DNA of 42,063 nucleotides, taken from NCBI GenBank assembly GCA_025925195.1, contig JAICLU010000004.1, forward strand, positions 1 to 42,063, read 5' to 3'. A program made the translations under genes and the position numbers. This document shows positions 3,609-13,585 of the stretch, one piece after another. The notes below the pieces were generated by a model. The model saw nothing but the letters and a program-made list of their open reading frames with translations, had not been told where the DNA came from and did not search any database. The DNA comes from Thermoleophilia bacterium. Its GTDB lineage: Bacteria > Actinomycetota > Thermoleophilia > Gaiellales > Gaiellaceae. The stretch's first letter is position 1; each line of letters opens with the position of its first letter.

Positions 3609-4079
3609 ATGCGCGGAACGATGGTGTGCGGGGTCTCCGACAGCGACGACGGCCGCCGTGCGGTCGAGCTCGGCATCGAGCTGAGCGAGCGCCTGGGGCT
3701 GCGGCTCGTGCTCGCGCACGTCGCCGACGGCTTCTACTCGCGCGAGGCCGTCGAGGACGGCGTCGAGAGCGTCGTCATGAAGGGCGACCGGATCCAGGCC
3801 GAGCGGCTGCTCGAGAGGCTCGCAGACGAGTACGGGATCGCGAACACCGCGGAGTGCCGGTCGGCTGTCGGCGACCGGGCCGCGCTGCTCGGCCAGATCG
3901 CCGCCGAGGAGGCGGCCGACCTGATCGTCGTCGGCTCGCGCAGCCGCGGCTGGCGTGGCCGCGGGCTGCAGAGCGGTCTCGCGGACGAGCTCAAGACGGC
4001 GACGCCGGTGCCGGTCCTGATCGCGCCGCCCGGCGGCGGACGGCGGCGGACGATGGTCGCCGCGGAGGCAGCGCGCTAA
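3609..4079 (+). CDS. Universal stress protein (UspA family)
   Basis: This is a 156-residue single Usp domain. It starts with a hydrophobic strand (MVCGVSDSDDGRRAV) that has the usual Asp-Ser nucleotide contact. The C-terminal half carries LIVVGSRSRGWRGRGLQSGL, close to the ATP-binding G-x2-G-x9-G(S/T) motif but with a Gln-Ser at the end. It probably binds ATP or another nucleotide in the cytoplasm and acts in stress persistence. ATG 3609 follows AGAGGAGGGA, a strong ribosome site. It lies directly upstream of a two-component pair. Confidence 0.88.
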   Translation: MRGTMVCGVSDSDDGRRAVELGIELSERLGLRLVLAHVADGFYSREAVEDGVESVVMKGDRIQAERLLERLADEYGIANTAECRSAVGDRAALLGQIAAEEAADLIVVGSRSRGWRGRGLQSGLADELKTATPVPVLIAPPGGGRRRTMVAAEAAR

Positions 4080-4090
4080 CGTCGTGACAT
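4077..4090 (+). promoter_or_regulatory. Putative -10 for a leaderless histidine kinase mRNA
   Basis: TAACGT at 4077-4082 overlaps the stop codon of the stress-protein gene and sits 8 nt before ATG 4091, which has no ribosome site. The spacing fits transcription starting at or next to the ATG. Confidence 0.4.
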
Positions 4091-5050
4091 ATGGCGGGCC
4101 GCTCTCTGTCGATCTACTGGCGCGCGTTCGCCGTCAACGTCGGTCTCCTCGCAGCGATCGCGATCCTGCTCGTCGTCACGCCCGTGACGATTCACGCGTC
4201 GATCCGGCTGGAGCAGACGCTGATCGTCGGCGTCGGTCTCGTGGTGACGCTGATCGCCAACGCGGTGCTGCTGCGGCGGGCGGTCGCGCCGCTCCATCAT
4301 CTGGCGCAGCGGATGGAGGCCGTCGACCTGTTGCGCCGCGGCCAGCGACTCGAGGTGCAGCGCAGCGACGAGATCGGGCGCGTCGTCGCCGCGTTCAACC
4401 GGATGCTCGACCGGCTCGAGAACGAGCGCGAGACGAGCGCCCGTCGCGTGCTCGCCGCGCAGGAGGCGGAGCGGGTCGGGATCGCCCGTGACCTGCACGA
4501 CGAGGTCGGCCAGGTTCTGACCGGCGTGCTCCTGCACCTCGACTCGATCGCCGGCACCGACGAGGCGAAGCGCGCGGTTCGCGGCGCGCTCGACGAGGTA
4601 CGGCGCATCTCGCGTGAGCTCCGCCCGGAGATGCTCGAGCATCTCGGCCTGGTGAGCGCGCTGACCGAGCTCTCGACGTCCTTCGAGCGCGCGTCGGGCA
4701 TCCGGGTCGAGCGCCGCTTCGAGTCGACGCTGCCGCCGCTTCCCGCCGAGACCGAGCTCGCGGTCTACCGCGTCGCGCAGGAGAGCCTGACGAACGTCGC
4801 GCGCCACGCCCACGCGCGGCACGTCACGATCGGGCTCGAGCCCGGGCCCGGGCGCGTCGTCCTGCGTGTCGTCGACGACGGGCGCGGCTTCGACGCCCTC
4901 CCCGAGGAGAACGGCGGCCTGCGGAGCATGCGCGAGCGGTCGCTGCTCGTGGGCGGGGCGCTTGCGATCAAGCCGGGCCCGCGGGGCGGGGTCGAGGTGC
5001 GGCTCGAGGTGCCGGCGGCGGCGGTCGCGGAGCCGGTGGCGGCGACCTGA
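4091..5050 (+). CDS. NarL-type sensor histidine kinase (HisKA_3)
   Basis: This 319-residue inner-membrane kinase has two membrane segments (residues ~12-30 and ~43-62) separated by a very short loop, so there is almost no external sensor domain. A HAMP linker (~62-115) follows. The dimerisation and phosphoacceptor helix has H136 in IARDLHDEVGQ, and the ATPase domain has the N-box ESLTNVARHAHA and the G-box VVDDGRGFD. It phosphorylates the response regulator encoded immediately downstream, whose ATG overlaps this stop (TGATG). The signal is unknown; the small periplasmic loop suggests sensing within or at the membrane. Confidence 0.9.
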   Translation: MAGRSLSIYWRAFAVNVGLLAAIAILLVVTPVTIHASIRLEQTLIVGVGLVVTLIANAVLLRRAVAPLHHLAQRMEAVDLLRRGQRLEVQRSDEIGRVVAAFNRMLDRLENERETSARRVLAAQEAERVGIARDLHDEVGQVLTGVLLHLDSIAGTDEAKRAVRGALDEVRRISRELRPEMLEHLGLVSALTELSTSFERASGIRVERRFESTLPPLPAETELAVYRVAQESLTNVARHAHARHVTIGLEPGPGRVVLRVVDDGRGFDALPEENGGLRSMRERSLLVGGALAIKPGPRGGVEVRLEVPAAAVAEPVAAT

Positions 5051-5706
5051 TGGGGATCCCGCTCGTGACGCGGATCCTGATCGCCGACGATCATCCGCTC
5101 GTCCGCTCCGGCCTGCGGAAGGTGCTCGACGCGCAGCCCGACCTGGAGGTGGCGGCCGAGGCGGAGAACGGCGCCGAGGCGGTCGACAAGGCGTTGAAGG
5201 AGGACGTCCATCTGGCGATCCTCGACGTCTCGATGCCGCGCATGACCGGCATCCAGGCGACCGCCGAGCTGCACCGGCGCAAGCCGGAGCTGAAGACGCT
5301 GATCCTCTCGATGCACGACAGCGAGCAGTTCCTGTTCGAGGCGCTGAAGGCAGGCGCGTCGGGCTACGTGCTGAAGTCGGGTGCCGACACAGACATCGTC
5401 GACGCCTGCCGGGCGGCGATGCGCGGCGACTCGTTCCTCTATCCGTCGGCGATTGCGACCCTCGTGCGCGATTACGTCGATCGCGGCGGCCGCGGGGAGG
5501 AGCAGTTCGACGTCCTGACGCCGCGCGAGCTCGAGGTGTTGAAGCTGATCGCCGAGGCGCAGACGTCGAAGCAGATCTCGGAGCTGCTGTTCATCAGCGT
5601 CAAGACGGTCGAGCGCCACCGTCAGAACATCCTCGACAAGCTCGGCATGCGCGACCGCGTCGAGCTGACGCGCTACGCGATCCGCCGCGGCCTCATCCAG
5701 CCCTAG
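5050..5706 (+). CDS. NarL/FixJ-family response regulator (LuxR HTH)
   Basis: The receiver domain (residues ~8-125) has D13/D14 and phosphoacceptor D59 in LAILDVSMPRMTG. The C-terminal LuxR helix-turn-helix (~155-215) includes LTPRELEVLKLIAEAQTSKQ and SVKTVERHRQNILDKL. It binds DNA as a phospho-dimer. ATG 5050 overlaps the kinase stop by one base; GTG 5065 is an alternative giving a start nearer the receiver core. The gene ends at a hairpin shared with the convergent cupin gene. Target genes are not evident; the adjacent stress-protein genes are candidates by position only. Confidence 0.92.
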   Translation: MGIPLVTRILIADDHPLVRSGLRKVLDAQPDLEVAAEAENGAEAVDKALKEDVHLAILDVSMPRMTGIQATAELHRRKPELKTLILSMHDSEQFLFEALKAGASGYVLKSGADTDIVDACRAAMRGDSFLYPSAIATLVRDYVDRGGRGEEQFDVLTPRELEVLKLIAEAQTSKQISELLFISVKTVERHRQNILDKLGMRDRVELTRYAIRRGLIQP

Positions 5707-5728
5707 GCGCCCGCTTTCAAGCAGGCGC
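5707..5728. terminator. Hairpin shared by convergent genes
   Basis: GCGCCCGC and GCAGGCGC pair (7 of 8) around the loop TTTCAA. The hairpin starts right after the response regulator stop and overlaps the last codons of the opposing cupin gene. There is no U-tract, as is common in high-GC genomes. Confidence 0.45.
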
Positions 5729-6034
5729 GACCGGAGATGCCGGGCGGATCTGCAGCGGCTCGCGCCGGCGGTGCACCGAGAGGTAGCGCGCGCCGTCGGG
5801 CCCGGCGGTGATCGACCGGCGTCGTCCCCTCCCGATGATCGTCGCGTCCTCGACGCCCAGTTCGTGCGTCTCGTCGTCGACGCGAACCGTCGCGGAGCCG
5901 GCCAGGACGACGACGAGCACGTCGCGCTCCGTGTTCACATGCTCGGGCGAGCCCTCTCCGGCGGGCCACGCGAGCAGCGTCGCGTTCAGCTCCTCCGACG
6001 CCATGCCCCAGACCGGGCCGCTTGCTCCACTCAC
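5717..6034 (-). CDS. Small cupin-domain protein
   Basis: This 105-residue single cupin barrel contains GEGSPEHVNTERDVLVVVLAG (metal motif 1 region with one His, partly degenerate) and GRRRSITAGPDGARYLSVHR. The usual second metal His pair is weak, so metal binding is uncertain. The N-terminal MSGASGPVWG and C-terminal proline-rich tail are short. GTG 6034 is chosen because TACGCT lies 6 nt upstream with no ribosome site, the leaderless pattern seen elsewhere here. ATG 6004 inside the reading frame is an alternative. Similar small cupins often bind small organic acids or act as sensors; no substrate can be named. Confidence 0.75.
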   Translation of the reverse strand: MSGASGPVWGMASEELNATLLAWPAGEGSPEHVNTERDVLVVVLAGSATVRVDDETHELGVEDATIIGRGRRRSITAGPDGARYLSVHRRREPLQIRPASPVAPA

Positions 6035-6046
6035 GTGACGAGCGTA
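6035..6046 (-). promoter_or_regulatory. Putative -10 for leaderless cupin mRNA
   Basis: On the minus strand TACGCT (6046-6041) is followed by 6 nt and then the GTG start at 6034. It lies in the short gap after the DUF488 stop, so the cupin could be transcribed on its own as well as by read-through. Confidence 0.4.
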
Positions 6047-6056
6047 GCGGCGTCGG

Positions 6057-6407
6057 TCACGCGCCGTCCCGCAGCACGTCGGCGAGCACGACCGCGTCGT
6101 TGTGCTCGGTGTCGCGTGCCGAGTAGACGAGCGTGAGCGGGCCCTTCTTCGCCGTGCGACGGAGGTCGTCGAGCGCCGTGTTCCGGTCTGTGAGCTCCGC
6201 CGCGTACCGGCGACGGAACTCGTCGAAGCGCGCGGGATCGTGCGAGAACCAGCGCCGCAACTCCGTGCTGGGGGAGAGGTCACGGAGCCAGTCGTCGATC
6301 GCGGCCCGCTCGCGGCTGACGCCGCGCGGCCAGAGGCGGTCGACGAGGATCCGCGTGCCGTCGGCCGGGTCGGGCGGGTCGTACACCCGCTTGATCCGCA
6401 CGTCCAT
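6057..6407 (-). CDS. DUF488 family protein
   Basis: This 116-residue cytoplasmic protein matches the DUF488 (YeaO-like) family throughout: KRVYDPPDPADGTRILVDRLWPRG split over the N-terminus, then RWFSHDPARFDEFRRRY, and the closing strand LVYSARDTEHNDAVVL. The length is normal for the family. ATG 6407 overlaps the stop of the upstream stress-protein gene by one base (TGATG), so translation is coupled. The biochemical role of DUF488 is not settled. The run of stress proteins and a dehydrogenase subunit upstream suggests a stress or redox setting. Confidence 0.88.
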   Translation of the reverse strand: MDVRIKRVYDPPDPADGTRILVDRLWPRGVSRERAAIDDWLRDLSPSTELRRWFSHDPARFDEFRRRYAAELTDRNTALDDLRRTAKKGPLTLVYSARDTEHNDAVVLADVLRDGA

Positions 6408-6856
6408 CAGTCCGTGCTCGACGGCGGTCGCACGATCACGACCGGGCACGACGCGTGCTGGGCGCACTGCTGGCTCACCGAACCGAGGAGGAGCTGTGCG
6501 AAGCCGCCGTGCCCGCGTGACCCGACGACGAGCATGGCCGCGTCGCGGGATTCGTCGATCAGGACGCCGGCGGCGGGCCCCTCGACGATGCGCTCCTCGA
6601 CCTCGACGTCGCCCGGGCTCGGGAGTGCGCGCGCGACAGTCGCTTCGAGCGTCGCCGTCGCCGCGTCGCGGAGCGCCGAGATGTCGACGCCCACGGCCGG
6701 CACGCTGCCCTCGAAGCCGCTGTAACCGAGATAGGCGGCCTGCCACGCATGCACCGCGCAGAGCTTCGCGTTGCGCAGCCGGGCCTCCTCGTGCGCGAAG
6801 ACGAGCGCCGCCTTTGCTCCGTCGGAGTGGTCGACACCGACGACGATCGTGTTCAT
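6407..6856 (-). CDS. Universal stress protein (UspA family, ATP-binding type)
   Basis: This is a 149-residue Usp domain. It starts MNTIVVGVDHSDGAKAAL with the nucleotide-contacting Asp. Near the C-terminus VVGSRGHGGFAQLLLGSVSQ fits the G-x2-G-x9-G-S ATP motif exactly, so it should bind ATP. The ATG has GGAGGAGAGAGC upstream and overlaps the stop of the E1-alpha gene (ATGA). It sits between an oxoacid dehydrogenase subunit and DUF488. Its role is probably cytoplasmic stress protection or regulation of its neighbours; that link is inference. Confidence 0.9.
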   Translation of the reverse strand: MNTIVVGVDHSDGAKAALVFAHEEARLRNAKLCAVHAWQAAYLGYSGFEGSVPAVGVDISALRDAATATLEATVARALPSPGDVEVEERIVEGPAAGVLIDESRDAAMLVVGSRGHGGFAQLLLGSVSQQCAQHASCPVVIVRPPSSTD

Positions 6857-8364: not shown

Positions 8365-8589
8365 TCAGGCGCTGAGCAACGCGTACAGGCTGTCGTGCTC
8401 CTCGCGGCAGGCAGGGCAGCCGGCGAGGTGGGCGCGGAGCCCCGGGATCTCGGCGTCGACGTCGCGGCCGGCGAGCTCGAGCTCGACGTAGCGGTCGAGC
8501 TCGTCGAAGCACACGTCGCAGCCGACTTCGGGCTCGGCCGGCCCCAGCAGGCGGCCGAGCGCCTGCCCGATCTCGGATCTGTCGGTCAC
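8365..8589 (-). CDS. Zinc-finger anti-sigma factor (ZAS type)
   Basis: This 74-residue soluble protein carries H54-x3-C58-x2-C61 (HLAGCPAC), the core of zinc anti-sigma domains, plus a second pair C24-x2-C27 (CDVC). No membrane helix follows, so it resembles cytoplasmic redox-responsive anti-sigmas such as RsrA rather than membrane-tethered ones. The predicted role is to bind and silence the sigma factor encoded just upstream, releasing it when the thiols are oxidised or the metal is lost (inference from the family). GTG 8589 overlaps the sigma stop (GTGA), which favours equimolar synthesis. Confidence 0.85.
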   Translation of the reverse strand: MTDRSEIGQALGRLLGPAEPEVGCDVCFDELDRYVELELAGRDVDAEIPGLRAHLAGCPACREEHDSLYALLSA

Positions 8590-9284
8590 TCTGCCTCCAG
8601 CCGGTCTGCGAGCGCGAAGCCGCGCTCGACGAGGTGGGCGCGCAGCTTCCGCCGCGCGTCGTGCAAGGTCTTGTAGAGCGCGCCCCGGTTCGTGCTCAGC
8701 CGCTCGGCGAGCACGTCGATCGGGACGCCGTTGACGGCCAGGGCGACGAGGACGCTGCGCTGATGCGGGGTGAGCGCCTCGGCGACCGCCGTCTGCACCG
8801 CGGCGAGCAGCTCGCGCTGCTCGCTCGCCGCATCGGGCCCGAGCGCCGTGCTCGAGAAGATGTCCCAGTCGTCGGGCTCGAGCGGAACCTCGCGGCCCTG
8901 CCAGGCGCGCTTGCGGAGCTTGACCGCCGCCTCGAGCAGGGCGAACTTGTACGCCCACGTCGTGAAGCGGCTCGCGCCGCGGAAGTCGTCGAGCCGGCGG
9001 AGGACGCTGAGCGTCGCGTCGGCCGCGGCCTCGGCTGCGATGTCCTCGAGCTCGTTGCCGCGCAGGTGGCGCATTGTGTGCCGCCGGCGCGAGATCTCGA
9101 ACCGTGCCGCGCCGAGCAGAAGCGTGTGCAGGCGGGCGATCGCCGCGTCGCGCGTCGCACCGTCCGCCCGAAGCGTCCGCAGCCACTCGTGCGACTCGAG
9201 GTCGAACGGCGGCGGCGGCGGGGCTGCGACCAGCGGGACGGCGGGCTCCACGGCCTTCACCGTACCGACCTCGAGAATGCTCAT
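8586..9284 (-). CDS. ECF-type RNA polymerase sigma factor
   Basis: This 232-residue protein has sigma region 2 (residues ~75-135) with the core-binding and -10 recognition stretch FRGASRFTTWAYKFALLEA, and region 4 (~170-225) with LTPHQRSVLVALAVNGVPID and STNRGALYKTLHDARRKL as the -35 recognition helix-turn-helix. A Pro-rich ~30-residue leader precedes region 2. Start ATG 9284 overlaps the 78-residue gene (ATGA). It is followed by its anti-sigma gene. Because it is the penultimate gene of a run containing a cupredoxin and membrane heme-like protein, it may autoregulate that run; no shared -35/-10 pair could be confirmed by eye. Confidence 0.88.
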   Translation of the reverse strand: MSILEVGTVKAVEPAVPLVAAPPPPPFDLESHEWLRTLRADGATRDAAIARLHTLLLGAARFEISRRRHTMRHLRGNELEDIAAEAAADATLSVLRRLDDFRGASRFTTWAYKFALLEAAVKLRKRAWQGREVPLEPDDWDIFSSTALGPDAASEQRELLAAVQTAVAEALTPHQRSVLVALAVNGVPIDVLAERLSTNRGALYKTLHDARRKLRAHLVERGFALADRLEAE

Positions 9285-9517
9285 GGGACGCGCCTCGGGT
9301 CGAGCGGGGCCAGGATTCGCACCGCGAGGGGAGGCGGGCAGCCCCGCTCGACGAGCCCGATCAGCGCGTGCAGGTCGAAGCGGTCGTCGTCGGAGATCTC
9401 GGCGGCGAGCCGGGCCGGGAACCCGGCCGCCGTCAGCTGTTCGCGCCGCCATGCTCCGACCTCGTCGACGTCCATTCCCGGTGTCGTCTTCGTCTGCACG
9501 TGAGGTTGGTGTCGCAT
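9281..9517 (-). CDS. Small conserved hypothetical protein, 78 aa
   Basis: I recognise no family. It has an N-terminal His/Thr segment, then a helical domain EVGAWRREQLTAAGFPARLA and a patch HALIGLVERGCPPPLAVRIL. It is soluble with a single Cys. ATG 9517 has AAGGA about 10 nt upstream; ATG 9475 is an internal alternative that removes the first 14 residues. Its stop overlaps the sigma ATG (ATGA), and the gene starts 12 nt after the secreted helical protein. Position suggests a small partner or regulator of the sigma/anti-sigma pair, but nothing in the sequence shows it. Confidence 0.7.
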   Translation of the reverse strand: MRHQPHVQTKTTPGMDVDEVGAWRREQLTAAGFPARLAAEISDDDRFDLHALIGLVERGCPPPLAVRILAPLDPRRVP

Positions 9518-9529
9518 CCCGGCCGGTCC

Positions 9530-10264
9530 TTACCTGAAGCGCGCCGGGAACTGGTCGACGATTCCGGCGGCGAGCAGGTCGGACATGTGGAGGATGTGGT
9601 CGTGCACGCGGTCGTAGGCGGCGACGTCCGCCGCCCACTTTCCCTGGATCCGCGCCACGGCCTCGGCCGCTGTCAGCTTCAGGTGCATGTGCATCTCGGC
9701 CTTCATCGTCGCGAGCGGCCAGAAGCGCGGGTTGACGCTGTGGAGCGTCGCGGCGATCTGGTCGGCGTTCGCCGTCCAGCGGGCCTGCGCGGCGGCGAGC
9801 TTCGCCTGGTCGCCCGCCTTGGCGGCCGCGACGACGTCGGCGGCGATCAGGATGTGCGCCCGCAGCAGCTTCGTCAGCGCGCTGCCCGCCGCCGCGCCGT
9901 AGTACGGCTTGATCGCGTTGCCGATGTCGGTCTGGTTCCGCAGGAGCCTGGCGAGGGTGGCGCTCGTGTCGGGCGTCCCCGCGACGAGGCTGATGATCGC
10001 GAGCCGTGTCCACGTGATGTGGTCCTCCCACAGCTTGCGCATGTCCGTGCGGAGTGTGACCGCCTTCGCGGTGAGCGCCGGGGCCGACTCGACAGAGACG
10101 GTCATCGGCATGTTCATCGCCGCCGGCGCGACGGGCGCCGGGTTGCCGTGCGCCTGCGCCATGTTCATGCCGTTCGACACGGCGAGCGCGGCGAGGGCGG
10201 CGAAGAACGCGACGATCGCGGTCAGCGACAGCGGGATCGGCTTCGCCGCTCGGGTGCGGTTCAT
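9530..10264 (-). CDS. Secreted or membrane-anchored helical protein with conserved His/Trp motifs
   Basis: This 244-residue protein has an N-terminal hydrophobic signal or anchor (residues ~11-31) ending near QAHG, then a Met/Pro-rich linker. The mature part is all-helical: MRKLWEDHITWTRLAIISL, LLRNQTDIGNAIKPYYG, a long Ala-rich helix, a MHMHLKL segment and VHDHILHMSDLLAAGI. The regularly spaced His, Asp and Met residues on predicted helices could bind metal or heme, as in four-helix-bundle proteins. Related proteins are usually annotated only as hypothetical. ATG 10264 overlaps the preceding stop (ATGA). It lies beside a cupredoxin, which supports an extracytoplasmic redox or metal role (inference). 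Confidence 0.78.
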   Translation of the reverse strand: MNRTRAAKPIPLSLTAIVAFFAALAALAVSNGMNMAQAHGNPAPVAPAAMNMPMTVSVESAPALTAKAVTLRTDMRKLWEDHITWTRLAIISLVAGTPDTSATLARLLRNQTDIGNAIKPYYGAAAGSALTKLLRAHILIAADVVAAAKAGDQAKLAAAQARWTANADQIAATLHSVNPRFWPLATMKAEMHMHLKLTAAEAVARIQGKWAADVAAYDRVHDHILHMSDLLAAGIVDQFPARFR

Positions 10265-10662
10265 GACAGGGTTCCTTTCGGTTGCGGGAAGGCGAGCAGC
10301 GACGGCCGGCGGACGAGACCCCAGGCGGCGGCGATTCCGGCCACCTCGACCGCCTTCGTGAAGAGCGCGAGCCCGTCGACCGCCTCGACGTCCGGGTGGA
10401 GGACGGGAACGCCGGTCGTCACGACGAGTGCGTAGGCCACGATCAGCCCGGCGAAGATCGCGATCGCCGAGACGAGCGCGGCCTGCGAGGGCGTCTTCGT
10501 CAGGACGACCGCGAGCACGGCGAGCAGCACGGCCGAGACGACGAACCCGATCCCGGCCGCGGTGCCCTCCTCGAAATGGTCGGGAGCGAGCGCCGCATGG
10601 ACGCCGGCGCTGATCGCACAGGCGAGGATGACGACGTCGCCTCGCAGCTCGGCGAGCGTCAC
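10261..10662 (-). CDS. Small four-helix membrane protein
   Basis: This 133-residue protein has about four membrane helices (residues ~8-26, 35-54, 62-83 and ~98-115). Helix 1 carries SAGVHAALAPDHFEEG, with two His near the membrane face; a further His lies in the loop VPVLHPDVEAVDG. I know no characterised family. It is overlapped on both sides (GTGA with the cupredoxin, ATGA with the secreted helical protein), so it is strictly an operon member. A role as a small subunit of a membrane redox or copper-handling complex is plausible from context only. Confidence 0.75.
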   Translation of the reverse strand: MTLAELRGDVVILACAISAGVHAALAPDHFEEGTAAGIGFVVSAVLLAVLAVVLTKTPSQAALVSAIAIFAGLIVAYALVVTTGVPVLHPDVEAVDGLALFTKAVEVAGIAAAWGLVRRPSLLAFPQPKGTLS

Positions 10663-11003
10663 CGGACGATCACCGTCCCGTGCATGTCCTTGCTGTGCAG
10701 CGTGCAGACGTAGTGATACGTGCCGGGCTTGTCGAACCGGATCGACACGCTGTGGCCGCGGTCGACCTTGTGGTCGTCCTGGCCCTCGAACTTCACGGTG
10801 TGCGTGAAGTTGTCGTTGTTCGTCCACGTCACGGTCTGGCCCGCCTTGATCACGATCGCGGTCGGCGAGAAGCGGTAGCTCTTCGCCATCGAGACCGCGG
10901 TGGTCTTGACCGGGGCGCTGTTGCGCGCGCCGCCGCAGCCTGCCGCGACGAGCGTCACGGCGACGACTGCGACGGCGGGCGCGAGAAGTCTTGCGCGCCT
11001 CAC
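10659..11003 (-). CDS. Cupredoxin lipoprotein (plastocyanin/azurin-like)
   Basis: This 114-residue protein has a lipoprotein signal peptide with lipobox VAAGC (Cys23), so it is anchored outside the membrane. The cupredoxin domain (~residues 40-114) has FSPTAIVIKAGQTVTWTNND and the type-1 copper ligands H68 (FTHTV), C100, H103 and M107 in YHYVCTLHSKDMHGT. The spacing C-x2-H-x3-M is that of blue copper electron carriers. It should shuttle single electrons or bind copper on the outer face of the membrane. GTG 11003 overlaps the preceding membrane-protein stop (GTGA). The COX1-like protein two genes upstream is a candidate redox partner. Confidence 0.9.
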   Translation of the reverse strand: MRRARLLAPAVAVVAVTLVAAGCGGARNSAPVKTTAVSMAKSYRFSPTAIVIKAGQTVTWTNNDNFTHTVKFEGQDDHKVDRGHSVSIRFDKPGTYHYVCTLHSKDMHGTVIVR

Positions 11004-11308
11004 GACCGTGTCACCTCGAGCGCCGGCCTGCGCACGGTCGAGTAGACGGCGGCCGCGAACACGAGCACGAATGCGGTGAGGTCGAGCACCTCGGCAATCG
11101 TGTGCGCGAACAGGAAGACCGTCCAGTCGAGGTGGTACGTCATGTAGACGAGCTCGGCGACGGCGAAGAGCGAGAACGCGACGCCGAGCAGCGACAGCTC
11201 GCGCTTGTACGCGAGCCATGCGAAGCCCGCGCCGAGCGCGAACGCGGTGATGTGCACGACGAGAAAGAACGTCGTCGGCAGGTCGTTGATCCAACTCCCG
11301 TAGGGCAT
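11000..11308 (-). CDS. Small three-helix membrane protein with membrane histidines
   Basis: This 102-residue protein has three predicted helices (~12-33, 38-60 and 66-88). Each carries a His close to the bilayer: FFLVVHITAF, YMTYHLDWTV and FLFAHTIAEVLD. That pattern is compatible with heme or metal binding but matches no family I can name. ATG 11308 has a perfect CAAGGAGGAC site. A 55-nt gap upstream separates it from the COX1-like gene, so a secondary promoter is possible there. Its stop overlaps the cupredoxin start. Confidence 0.78.
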   Translation of the reverse strand: MPYGSWINDLPTTFFLVVHITAFALGAGFAWLAYKRELSLLGVAFSLFAVAELVYMTYHLDWTVFLFAHTIAEVLDLTAFVLVFAAAVYSTVRRPALEVTRS

Positions 11309-11363
11309 GTGTCCTCCTTGAGCTTTCGGGTGTGGATCGTTGGTGCCGGTGCGGCGGCCGTCC

Positions 11364-12644
11364 TTACGTCGAACGACGGGACCAGGTGAGCGCCGCGCCG
11401 GCGACCGTGAGGACGGCCGAGACGACGAGTGCGGCCGCGCCGGCGCGCGCGGCGACGGCGCTGCCGGCGAGGACGCCGATCGCGAGCGTCTCGATGCCGG
11501 CGGCAAACGCCGCCGCTTCGAGCAGTGTCAGTCCGCGCGGGTAGAGGACGGCCTGCTTCGGCCGAGGCCCCGGCGGCCACCACACCCAGAGCGAGAGTGA
11601 GAGCAGCTTGCCCAGGTGGCCGACGACGACGCCGGCCGCCCAGCCGCCGAGCAGGAAGACGACGTACGCGATGACGACCCGGGTGCCGCCCGCGCCCGCG
11701 GCAGCGACGAATCCGAGGACGGCGGCCTGCGCGAGGAAGACGCCGCCGGCGAGCAGGTGTGCGAGCGGCGCCTCGATCGAGCTGCGTCGCGCGCGCGCCG
11801 TGCGCAGCGTCAGCGTCACGAAGCGGGCGAGCGCGAGCACGACGACCGCGCCGCCGGCCAGGGTCAGCGGCCGGTCGCGGGTGCCGATCCCGGCGAGCAG
11901 CAGCCAGAGCCCGCCGGCCAGCGCGAGCTCCTCGTACGGTCGCGATCGCTGCGGAGCGGTCGGCGCCTGCGCGAGCATCGGCCCGAGGCTCCGTCCCACC
12001 GCGACGATCAGCAGCGCGATCCAGCCGAGCAGGGCGACGTGCAGGTGGATGAGCAGCCAGCGTCCGTATGCCAGGCCGCCGAACGGGCGGTCGTAGTCGT
12101 AGATCAGGGCGCCGAGGCAGAGCGCGACGACGGCGTGCGCGCACGAGAGTGCGACGCCGGTGCGGCTTGCGATCAGCATCCGGCCGCCCGGCGCGCGCCC
12201 GACGAGCGTGAGGATCTCGGCGAGCACGATCGCGAGCCCGCACGCCAGCGCGGCCGCGCCGATCCAGACCAGCGGGCCGGACTCGCGGCCGAGTCCCGCC
12301 GCGATCAGGAAGCTGCCCCACAGCAGCGGCAGCGCGACCCAGAGCGCGCGCTGCGACGGCAAGTCGTTGCGGAGCATCACGGGCAGCAGGTGGAAGCACG
12401 CGCCGGCGACTGCGAACGGGAGCACGCCGAGCGCGACGAGGTGCACTGCGAGCACGGGGCCGGCCGCGAGCGGGTTCCCGGCGGCGAGGTCGCCCGCCGC
12501 TGCCACCGCGGCGATCGTCGCCGCGAGCCAGCCGCCGAGCGCCGTCGCGAAGTAGGCGGCGAGCAGCCGGCGCGACACGGGCCCGCCGACGGCACGGCCG
12601 CCGCCGGCGAGGGCGAGGGGACGGGAGGTGCTCTGCCCGCTCAC
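11364..12644 (-). CDS. Polytopic heme-copper-oxidase-subunit-I-like (or NnrS-like) membrane protein
   Basis: This 426-residue protein has about twelve membrane helices. Two stretches resemble each other and the low-spin heme helices of COX1/NnrS-type proteins: VHLVALGVLPFAVAGACFHL (then LPVML) and IHLHVALLGWIALLIVAVGR. A further His occurs in GHLGKLLSLSLWVWW. The full heme-copper ligand set (six His including a His-His pair) is not visible, so it is probably not a terminal oxidase; a heme-binding, nitric-oxide or copper-related role is possible. GTG 12644 overlaps the flippase-like stop (GTGA). In-frame sequence upstream of that GTG is Arg-rich shadow reading. Confidence 0.8.
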   Translation of the reverse strand: MSGQSTSRPLALAGGGRAVGGPVSRRLLAAYFATALGGWLAATIAAVAAAGDLAAGNPLAAGPVLAVHLVALGVLPFAVAGACFHLLPVMLRNDLPSQRALWVALPLLWGSFLIAAGLGRESGPLVWIGAAALACGLAIVLAEILTLVGRAPGGRMLIASRTGVALSCAHAVVALCLGALIYDYDRPFGGLAYGRWLLIHLHVALLGWIALLIVAVGRSLGPMLAQAPTAPQRSRPYEELALAGGLWLLLAGIGTRDRPLTLAGGAVVVLALARFVTLTLRTARARRSSIEAPLAHLLAGGVFLAQAAVLGFVAAAGAGGTRVVIAYVVFLLGGWAAGVVVGHLGKLLSLSLWVWWPPGPRPKQAVLYPRGLTLLEAAAFAAGIETLAIGVLAGSAVAARAGAAALVVSAVLTVAGAALTWSRRST

Positions 12645-13585
12645 GGTTCCGCGAGTCTCTCGGATCGCCGGTCGATGAAGCGCTTCCAGCGGAACGTCCG
12701 CAGCATCAGCCCGATCGCCGCGAAGCCGACGACGAGGTTGACCGTCATCAGCGTGATCTTCATCCCGACGCTGAAGCTCAGCACCGCGGCTGCGGCCGCG
12801 GTGCCGGAGAAGACGTAGACGATCAGCCCCTGCTCGGTCCCGATGCCGCCGGGAGTCAGCGGCACGAGCGTCGAGAGGCTCTGCGTCGCCTGCACGAGCA
12901 GCGCGTTGTGCACGGTCGCGGGCAGGCCGAAGGCGCGCAGGAGGAAGTAGATCGTCCCGATCCGCAGCGCCCAGTCGATCGCCTGCAGGCTCGCGACCGA
13001 GCGGAGGTAGCGCGGCGGGTCGCGGAGGATCGCGCCGCCGGCGCGCAGTTGCTGGGCGAAGTTCTGCACGCGCCGGCGCGTCCACAGCCCCACGACGATC
13101 GCGACGGCGAGCACAACGAGCCCGACGACGATCGCGAGGCGGGGATAACGGTCGGCCCACGACCAGTCGACGGAACGCAGCCGGGGCAGGACGTCGAGGC
13201 CGGGAAGCACGCCGAGCTGCAGCACCCAGACGAACAGGATCGTCGAGGCGACGAAGTCGAAGAGCGTGTCGACCGCGAGCGTCGCGACGAGCGTCGGGTA
13301 GCGCGAGCCGGGGATCCGCTGCCTGATCAGGAAGAGCTTGAGCGCGTCGCCGGCGCGCGCCGGGACGACGGCGTTGACCGCAGCGCCGGCGACGTAGGCG
13401 CCGAAGGCCCCGCGCCAGCGCACGTTCGTGTCGGGATGCGCGGCGGCGAGCACGTTGCGCCAGGCTCGTGTCCGCACGACGAGCTTGCAGAGGTGCAGCG
13501 CGACGGCGATCGCCAGTGCATGCCACCCGATCGACCGGAGGTGGTCGGCGAACACGTCGAACGCATGGAACAGCTGATTCAGCAT
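12641..13585 (-). CDS. Flippase-like / lysylphosphatidylglycerol-synthase transmembrane family protein
   Basis: This 314-residue inner-membrane protein matches the UPF0104/LPG_synthase_TM family: about eight helices, an early GAYVAGAAVNAVVPARAGDA segment (the family's conserved N-x3-P-x-R-x-G), and late TPGGIGTEQG. Members are proposed lipid or glycan-lipid transporters. ATG 13585 has GAGG 6 nt upstream. It is the first gene of the nine-gene minus-strand run and is divergent from the TDT transporter, only 44 bp away. Whether it belongs functionally to the cupredoxin group or merely leads the transcript is unclear. Confidence 0.88.
   Translation of the reverse strand: MLNQLFHAFDVFADHLRSIGWHALAIAVALHLCKLVVRTRAWRNVLAAAHPDTNVRWRGAFGAYVAGAAVNAVVPARAGDALKLFLIRQRIPGSRYPTLVATLAVDTLFDFVASTILFVWVLQLGVLPGLDVLPRLRSVDWSWADRYPRLAIVVGLVVLAVAIVVGLWTRRRVQNFAQQLRAGGAILRDPPRYLRSVASLQAIDWALRIGTIYFLLRAFGLPATVHNALLVQATQSLSTLVPLTPGGIGTEQGLIVYVFSGTAAAAAVLSFSVGMKITLMTVNLVVGFAAIGLMLRTFRWKRFIDRRSERLAEP

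Follow-up and report, generated by a model that had tools for sequence, protein, structure and literature searches.

The stretch of DNA analysed here (the window; 42 kb, or 42,063 nucleotides, of a contig from a Thermoleophilia bacterium) derives from an actinobacterial genome of high GC content (71%) and holds, at positions 8365-13585, nine open reading frames (ORFs) on the minus strand, g1 to g9, all present as an earlier note on this DNA had described them. The last seven, g3 to g9, are best explained as a self-contained, autoregulated regulon of an extracytoplasmic function (ECF) sigma factor, probably triggered by oxidants and deploying an extracytoplasmic, cupredoxin-linked module; the probability of this explanation is put at about 0.55. 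Its regulatory half is well supported. A conserved gene block, two predicted promoters and their restriction to the locus, a conserved cysteine motif and the recurrence of the same parts together could all be established by sequence comparison; the effector chemistry is what we infer. The features of the locus are the following:

11340-11367, minus strand: predicted promoter P1 (GTAAGGACGGCCGCCGCACCGGCACCAA), with GTAAGG at 11362-11367 and CACCAA at 11340-11345, reading into g3-g4-g5-g6
11000-11308, minus strand: g3, 102 amino acids (aa), three predicted transmembrane (TM) helices with a histidine in or near each
10659-11003, minus strand: g4, 114 aa, cupredoxin lipoprotein
10261-10662, minus strand: g5, 133 aa, four-TM protein with an invariant GxHxA...H..E
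9530-10264, minus strand: g6, 244 aa, predicted exported all-helical protein, no Pfam family
9506-9533, minus strand: predicted promoter P2 (GTAAGGACCGGCCGGGATGCGACACCAA), with GTAAGG at 9528-9533 and CACCAA at 9506-9511, reading into g7-g8-g9, apparently leaderless
9281-9499, minus strand: g7, 72 aa after correction of the start (GTG 9497-9499), small conserved protein
8586-9284, minus strand: g8, 232 aa, ECF sigma factor
8365-8589, minus strand: g9, 74 aa, soluble zinc-type anti-sigma factor, C24xxC27...H54xxxC58xxC61
12641-13585, minus strand: g1, 314 aa, flippase-like protein (LPG_synthase_TM), a neighbour outside the module, overlapping g2 by 4 bp
11364-12644, minus strand: g2, 426 aa, 12-helix membrane protein, a neighbour outside the module

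Third-codon-position GC, where computed in frame, was 0.85-0.97 for the ORFs of the locus. Adjacent genes overlap by 4 bp at six of the eight junctions (-4 for g1/g2, g3/g4, g4/g5, g5/g6, g7/g8 and g8/g9), the remaining two being gaps of 55 nt (g2/g3) and 30 nt (g6/g7). The second gap depends on the start of g7, which had been placed at ATG 9517, giving a protein of 78 residues. Relatives of g7 begin with MQTKTTP or a similar sequence right behind the promoter, and ATG 9517 falls within the spacer of P2; the start was therefore moved to the equivalent position in the window, GTG 9497-9499. The tight spacing given in the earlier note is right for the ATG start, and gives way to the six overlaps and two gaps when the GTG is used.

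Both gaps hold one and the same motif, GTAAGGA-N15-CACCAA (11340-11367 and 9506-9533), a candidate for the sigma-dependent promoters that the earlier note had recommended looking for; at P1 as well as at P2, the TAA stop codon of the preceding gene sits inside GTAAGG. The locus is thus predicted to consist of three units, namely the neighbours g1-g2, the genes g3-g4-g5-g6 behind P1, and g7, sigma and anti-sigma behind P2.

The motif was first seen by eye when the sequences upstream of the sigma units, and of the genes around them, were listed for the relatives. GTAAGR was found in 48 of 85 upstream regions, against 2.8 expected from shuffles, and two exact motif sites are present in the window, against 0 expected from window shuffles. 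By using the strict pattern GTAAGR-N15/17-CRCNAA, at least one site within 2.5 kb was obtained at 33 of 43 loci carrying a g8-type sigma gene, for a total of 52 sites, and the reversed pattern, used as a control, produced 0 sites at the same loci. When spacers of up to 40 nt were allowed, their length was 16 nt in 42 cases and 17 nt in 10, with one outlier at 34. In the genome from which the window derives (2.6 Mb, about 82% complete), P1 and P2 are the only exact matches to GTAAGR-N15/17-CRCYAA, and one additional site appears when a mismatch is tolerated at fixed spacing. Matches in seven relatives' genomes lie mainly at the cassette in most of them; the sole match in one (G139) lies elsewhere. 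The motif is absent from 24 of 26 loci which have g6 and no close relative of g8, and a P1-type site also precedes g3 in four related loci (L015, L027, L079 and L080). Further promoter sites were observed in the relative G023, one ahead of a large membrane protein (L158, G023:C50:2663-2690) and one ahead of a glucoamylase-like protein (L164, G023:C54:12686-12713).

The search for conserved neighbourhoods proposed in the earlier note showed that g3 to g9 are linked, with unchanged gene order, in L015, L027 and L079, and that L080 has the same block without detectable g5 and g7; no such linkage was seen for g1 and g2. Close relatives of g8 (E≤1e-30) are found in 33 of 239 genomes of the class. 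Around the 43 sigma loci, in stretches of up to about 20 kb and not just among direct neighbours, the families most often found are the anti-sigma (39), the g6+g5 group (22), a ferredoxin-reductase-type flavoprotein (20) and g7 (19), followed by a FolE-type GTP cyclohydrolase I (10), DoxX-like proteins (9), cupredoxin (8) and g3 (7). Since the neighbouring families differ in frequency in this way, g7, sigma and anti-sigma are taken as a putative regulatory cassette with variable cargo. Behind the promoter of L123 and L126 stand g5-g6, a full g3-g4 being absent, and L123 keeps a remnant resembling the start of g3. In one of the alignments of relatives (A3), the row of L174, being out of frame, was disregarded.

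Cassette and cargo are also carried, in a divergent arrangement, by plasmid pNOCA01 of an isolate, Nocardioides sp. JS614. Behind one site lie an unannotated g5 and then g6 (NOCA_RS00760), and behind the second g7 with the genes of sigma (RS00755) and anti-sigma (RS00750); close by are folE (RS00730) and genes for a DoxX-like protein (RS00735) and for an oxidoreductase dependent on flavin adenine dinucleotide (FAD) (RS00725). The g5 relative upstream of NOCA_RS00760 (L180:5440-5850) is missing from the gene table of the record. On a mobilizable Methylocystis rosea plasmid (NZ_CP044330.1; L183/L239), a related sigma gene, followed by a small gene, is clustered at 38-54 kb with folE and NnrS, with genes for a multicopper oxidase and an encapsulin shell protein, with DUF488 and with a second sigma whose neighbour is a g6 relative. 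No paper joining a g8-type sigma with FolE, flavoprotein and cupredoxin cargo was found in a literature search of incomplete coverage.

The assignment of g8 as an ECF-type sigma, already made from the sequence alone, was borne out: only sigma regions 2 and 4 are present, the ECF (group IV) profile is matched (TIGR02937, 50.3 bits against a cut-off of 42.9), and in Pfam Sigma70_r4_2 is at, and Sigma70_r2 under, the cut-off. The nearest solved structure is that of SigH from Mycobacterium tuberculosis (E=2.5e-6). The adjoining gene, g9, encodes a protein without TM segments that combines HxxxCxxC with an N-terminal zinc ligand, which are, together with adjacency to a sigma gene, the marks of a zinc-type anti-sigma (ZAS) factor, zinc being predicted from the motif. 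Among the relatives of g9, C24, H54, C58 and C61 are kept in 39 of 39 and C27 in 38 of 39. The zinc anti-sigma assignment of the earlier note therefore holds for the CxxC...HxxxCxxC motif and falls short in Pfam, where the zf-HC2-like match (18.8 bits) is below the cut-off of 22.2; no RsrA-type chain was present among the PDB matches to the g9 profile. In RsrA, zinc is bound by Cys11, His37, Cys41 and Cys44, and the N-terminal zinc-binding cysteine of RsrA-type ZAS proteins is required for sigma release on oxidation (PMC4960319); the zinc motif is present in the majority of soluble anti-sigmas of class I, consistent with intracellular redox sensing (PMC7406223). Since the Cys-His-Cys-Cys arrangement of g9 fits the RsrA rule and the trend among soluble zinc anti-sigmas, a redox trigger is the best guess for the g8-g9 switch, and the thiol-type sensing suggested earlier appears plausible. 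The third member of the cassette, g7, has an invariant D-L/V-H and an invariant C in an alignment of 19 relatives, and no Pfam match at E≤1.

Among the products of the P1 unit, g4 is a cupredoxin by domain (Cupredoxin_1, 50.4 bits against a cut-off of 27, E=2.5e-13; Copper-bind, 46.6 against 21.2) and by the H, C, H, M type-1 copper ligand pattern in FTH...YVCTLHSKDM, in agreement with its first description as a blue-copper protein, and has a lipobox-like AAGC. Pfam matches at E≤1 are missing for g3, and are at chance level for g5 (E 0.07) and g6 (E 0.26). The g3 family is rare (3 of 239 genomes of the class, 4 of 396 of the phylum) and has a cupredoxin gene as its neighbour in L038, L044, L046 and L177 as well. 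PDB searches with the g5 profile gave chance-level matches only; g5 belongs to a broader four-TM family, present in 58 of 396 genomes of the phylum, and was discarded as a specific marker on this ground.

The mature part of g6 (residues 71-244), which follows an N-terminal hydrophobic segment predictive of export, was modelled by AlphaFold2 (AF2) as an all-helical bundle with a predicted local distance difference test (pLDDT) score above about 95; no structural relatives were found in the PDB (best Foldseek E=0.12, low TM-scores). An alignment of 29 rows contains 24 invariant columns, among them W79, H82, R106, N110, Q111, D113, Y122, H137 and H194, kept across phyla. The family has no Pfam model and occurs in records titled Chloroflexi, Gemmatimonadaceae, Acidobacteria, Bacillus/Neobacillus, Proteobacteria and Actinobacteria. 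It adjoins a cupredoxin in L038, L224, L227, L228 and L230, all without a g8-type sigma in the stretch examined, the protein being a tandem double-domain one in the last four, and is paired with g5 in L049, L054, L180 and L188; in these nine loci, a g8-type sigma is absent from all but three. In L140, g5 and g6 lie within one reading frame. The recurrent pairing of g3, g5, g6 and cupredoxin argues that g3-g6 may work together, near copper and outside the cytoplasm; a role in oxidant-protective electron transfer or copper handling would fit best. Tandem pairs of g6 domains in one reading frame were seen in L219-L221, L224, L227 and L228. In L048 and L053, g6 relatives stand beside a different ECF sigma and a FolE-type GTP cyclohydrolase, and L053 adds a Rieske-FAD oxidoreductase and an AhpD-like protein; the cargo theme recurs here with an unrelated sigma.

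According to the proposed mechanism, g9 would keep g8 inactive until oxidation of its cysteines expels zinc and frees the sigma factor, which would transcribe essentially two local promoters. Expression of g7-g8-g9 from P2 would provide self-amplification and feedback, and that of g3-g4-g5-g6 from P1 would deliver the type-1 copper protein anchored to lipid, the two small membrane proteins, whose histidines lie in or near the membrane, and the secreted helical protein. All of these would act at or outside the membrane and would most likely form together a cupredoxin-linked redox or copper-handling unit, protecting the envelope from oxidants. The signal, the release of zinc, the binding of copper and the protective reaction are steps that we infer. 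The explanation is also favoured by the position of SigH as the nearest solved sigma, relatives of SigH being responsive to oxidative stress, and by the cargo of other sigma loci, which includes ferredoxin-reductase-type flavoproteins and DoxX-like proteins. The idea of a module with its own sigma/anti-sigma switch, contained in the earlier note, is supported by the sequences compared.

Several results weigh against this explanation. The strict motif is missing from 10 of the 43 sigma loci and, having been derived from the same loci in which it was counted, is present in the others partly by construction, more independent tests being provided by the spacer lengths, by the control with the reversed pattern and by the scan of the whole genome. 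The score of g9 is far under the RsrA family cut-off (TIGR03988, 16.2 against 62.5 bits), and no Met or Cys is conserved in the 29-row alignment of g6. Cupredoxin and g3 are found in a minority of sigma loci (8/43 and 7/43), so that copper is not what the loci of the regulon have in common.

The two upstream genes were considered as members of the module in the earlier note, a view not sustained by their relatives. As proposed there, g1 is flippase-like (Pfam LPG_synthase_TM, E=7.5e-27), and it is absent upstream of g3 in L015, L027 and L079. For g2, described as COX1/NnrS-like, no Pfam match was obtained at E≤1; no Pfam NnrS or COX1 was detected in 13 family members, no PDB match was found, and hhalign against true NnrS gave E=0.86, so that the assignment finds no support in homology. 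The AF2 model of the single g2 sequence (pLDDT 48.5) is too poor to judge the fold. Conserved histidines are found in the predicted membrane helices of the 13 relatives. Genes of the g2 family lie on other contigs or far from the sigma cassette, and several belong to islands that also contain DUF2249, FeS_assembly_P, ArsR-type regulator or hemerythrin genes. Lying outside both predicted promoters and unlinked in relatives, g1 and g2 are regarded as neighbours. In L087, L089, L090 and L092 an uncharacterised gene set recurs, in which DUF2249 and FeS_assembly_P are followed, in overlapping order, by the g2 relative. Near the locus, positions 3621-6856 of the window encode two universal-stress-like (Usp-like) proteins, a paired histidine kinase and response regulator, a cupin and DUF488; genes of the Usp and DUF488 families are met again close to other g8-type sigma loci, and the kinase/regulator families close to a distant g6 relative (L026).

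The single nine-gene operon originally proposed is very improbable: the nine genes share one strand, g1 and g2 overlap by 4 bp and just 55 nt separate g2 from g3, a distance that would permit read-through, but the conserved block begins at g3 in four relatives and sigma-type promoters lie in both gaps. The same placing of g2 bears on the possibility of a nitrosative-stress island, in which g2 and the P1 operon would form a heme/copper system against nitric oxide (NO) or nitrite. The g2 relatives in DUF2249/FeS_assembly_P/hemerythrin islands and the presence of NnrS near g6 on the Methylocystis plasmid are in its favour; with g2 outside both promoters, not linked to the cassette in relatives and without homology to NnrS or COX1, it is judged improbable, less so than the single operon.

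A copper-responsive module is the strongest competitor, though still unlikely. In this case, excess copper would be sensed by the cysteines of g9, with Cu(I) replacing zinc, and cupredoxin, g3, g5 and g6 would bind or oxidise copper outside the cell. A link to copper had been part of the earlier proposal and finds support in the cupredoxin of the P1 operon, in the cupredoxins beside g6 relatives in unrelated loci and in the multicopper oxidase gene adjoining the related sigma of M. rosea. However, a copper gene is missing from the surroundings of most g8-type sigma loci, where cargo of the FolE, flavoprotein and DoxX-like kinds is commoner, and no copper exporter or chaperone is seen in the window locus.

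The closest known systems are SigR-RsrA of Streptomyces and SigH-RshA of Mycobacterium and Corynebacterium, which share with g8-g9 an ECF sigma, SigH being the nearest one solved, and a small soluble anti-sigma with Cys...HxxxCxxC, encoded directly after the sigma gene. Unlike these, g9 has an extra conserved cysteine (CxxC) and scores far under the RsrA cut-off, and the locus shows a tiny local regulon with envelope cargo, the partner g7 and GTAAGR/CRCNAA promoters, whereas those of SigR and SigH are of the GGAAT/GTT type. SigE-ChrR of Rhodobacter (ECF11) is likewise an autoregulated oxidant response with an HxxxCxxC zinc anti-sigma domain (PMC6852236), but ChrR has a His-His-Cys-Cys site and a C-terminal cupin domain, neither of which is present in g9. 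EcfF-OsrA of Bradyrhizobium (ECF16) and other DoxX-associated ECF systems are autoregulated, oxidant-responsive pairs with envelope targets (PMC3420878), OsrA being a six-TM membrane protein and g9 a soluble, zinc-type one. Among cupredoxins of the plastocyanin/azurin kind, g4 is an ordinary member by Pfam, set apart by its coupling to g3, g5 and g6, for none of which a described function came to light.

A redox-type ECF/ZAS switch is of a known kind; what sets this one apart is the unusual promoter code, the very small local regulon and a cargo including an uncharacterised, widespread secreted family. It is tentatively suggested, at somewhat less than even odds, that these loci represent an undescribed ECF group, distributed across Actinomycetota and plasmids and characterized by the promoter code GTAAGR-N16/17-CRCNAA, leaderless autoregulation and interchangeable oxidant-defence cargo, with the secreted g6 family, itself a cupredoxin partner and present in many bacterial phyla, as the central new part. 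The adjacency of g6 to cupredoxins and ECF sigma factors provides a first hypothesis for its function, and a list of hypothetical proteins becomes a testable regulon with defined promoters, for which a cultured carrier, Nocardioides sp. JS614, exists.

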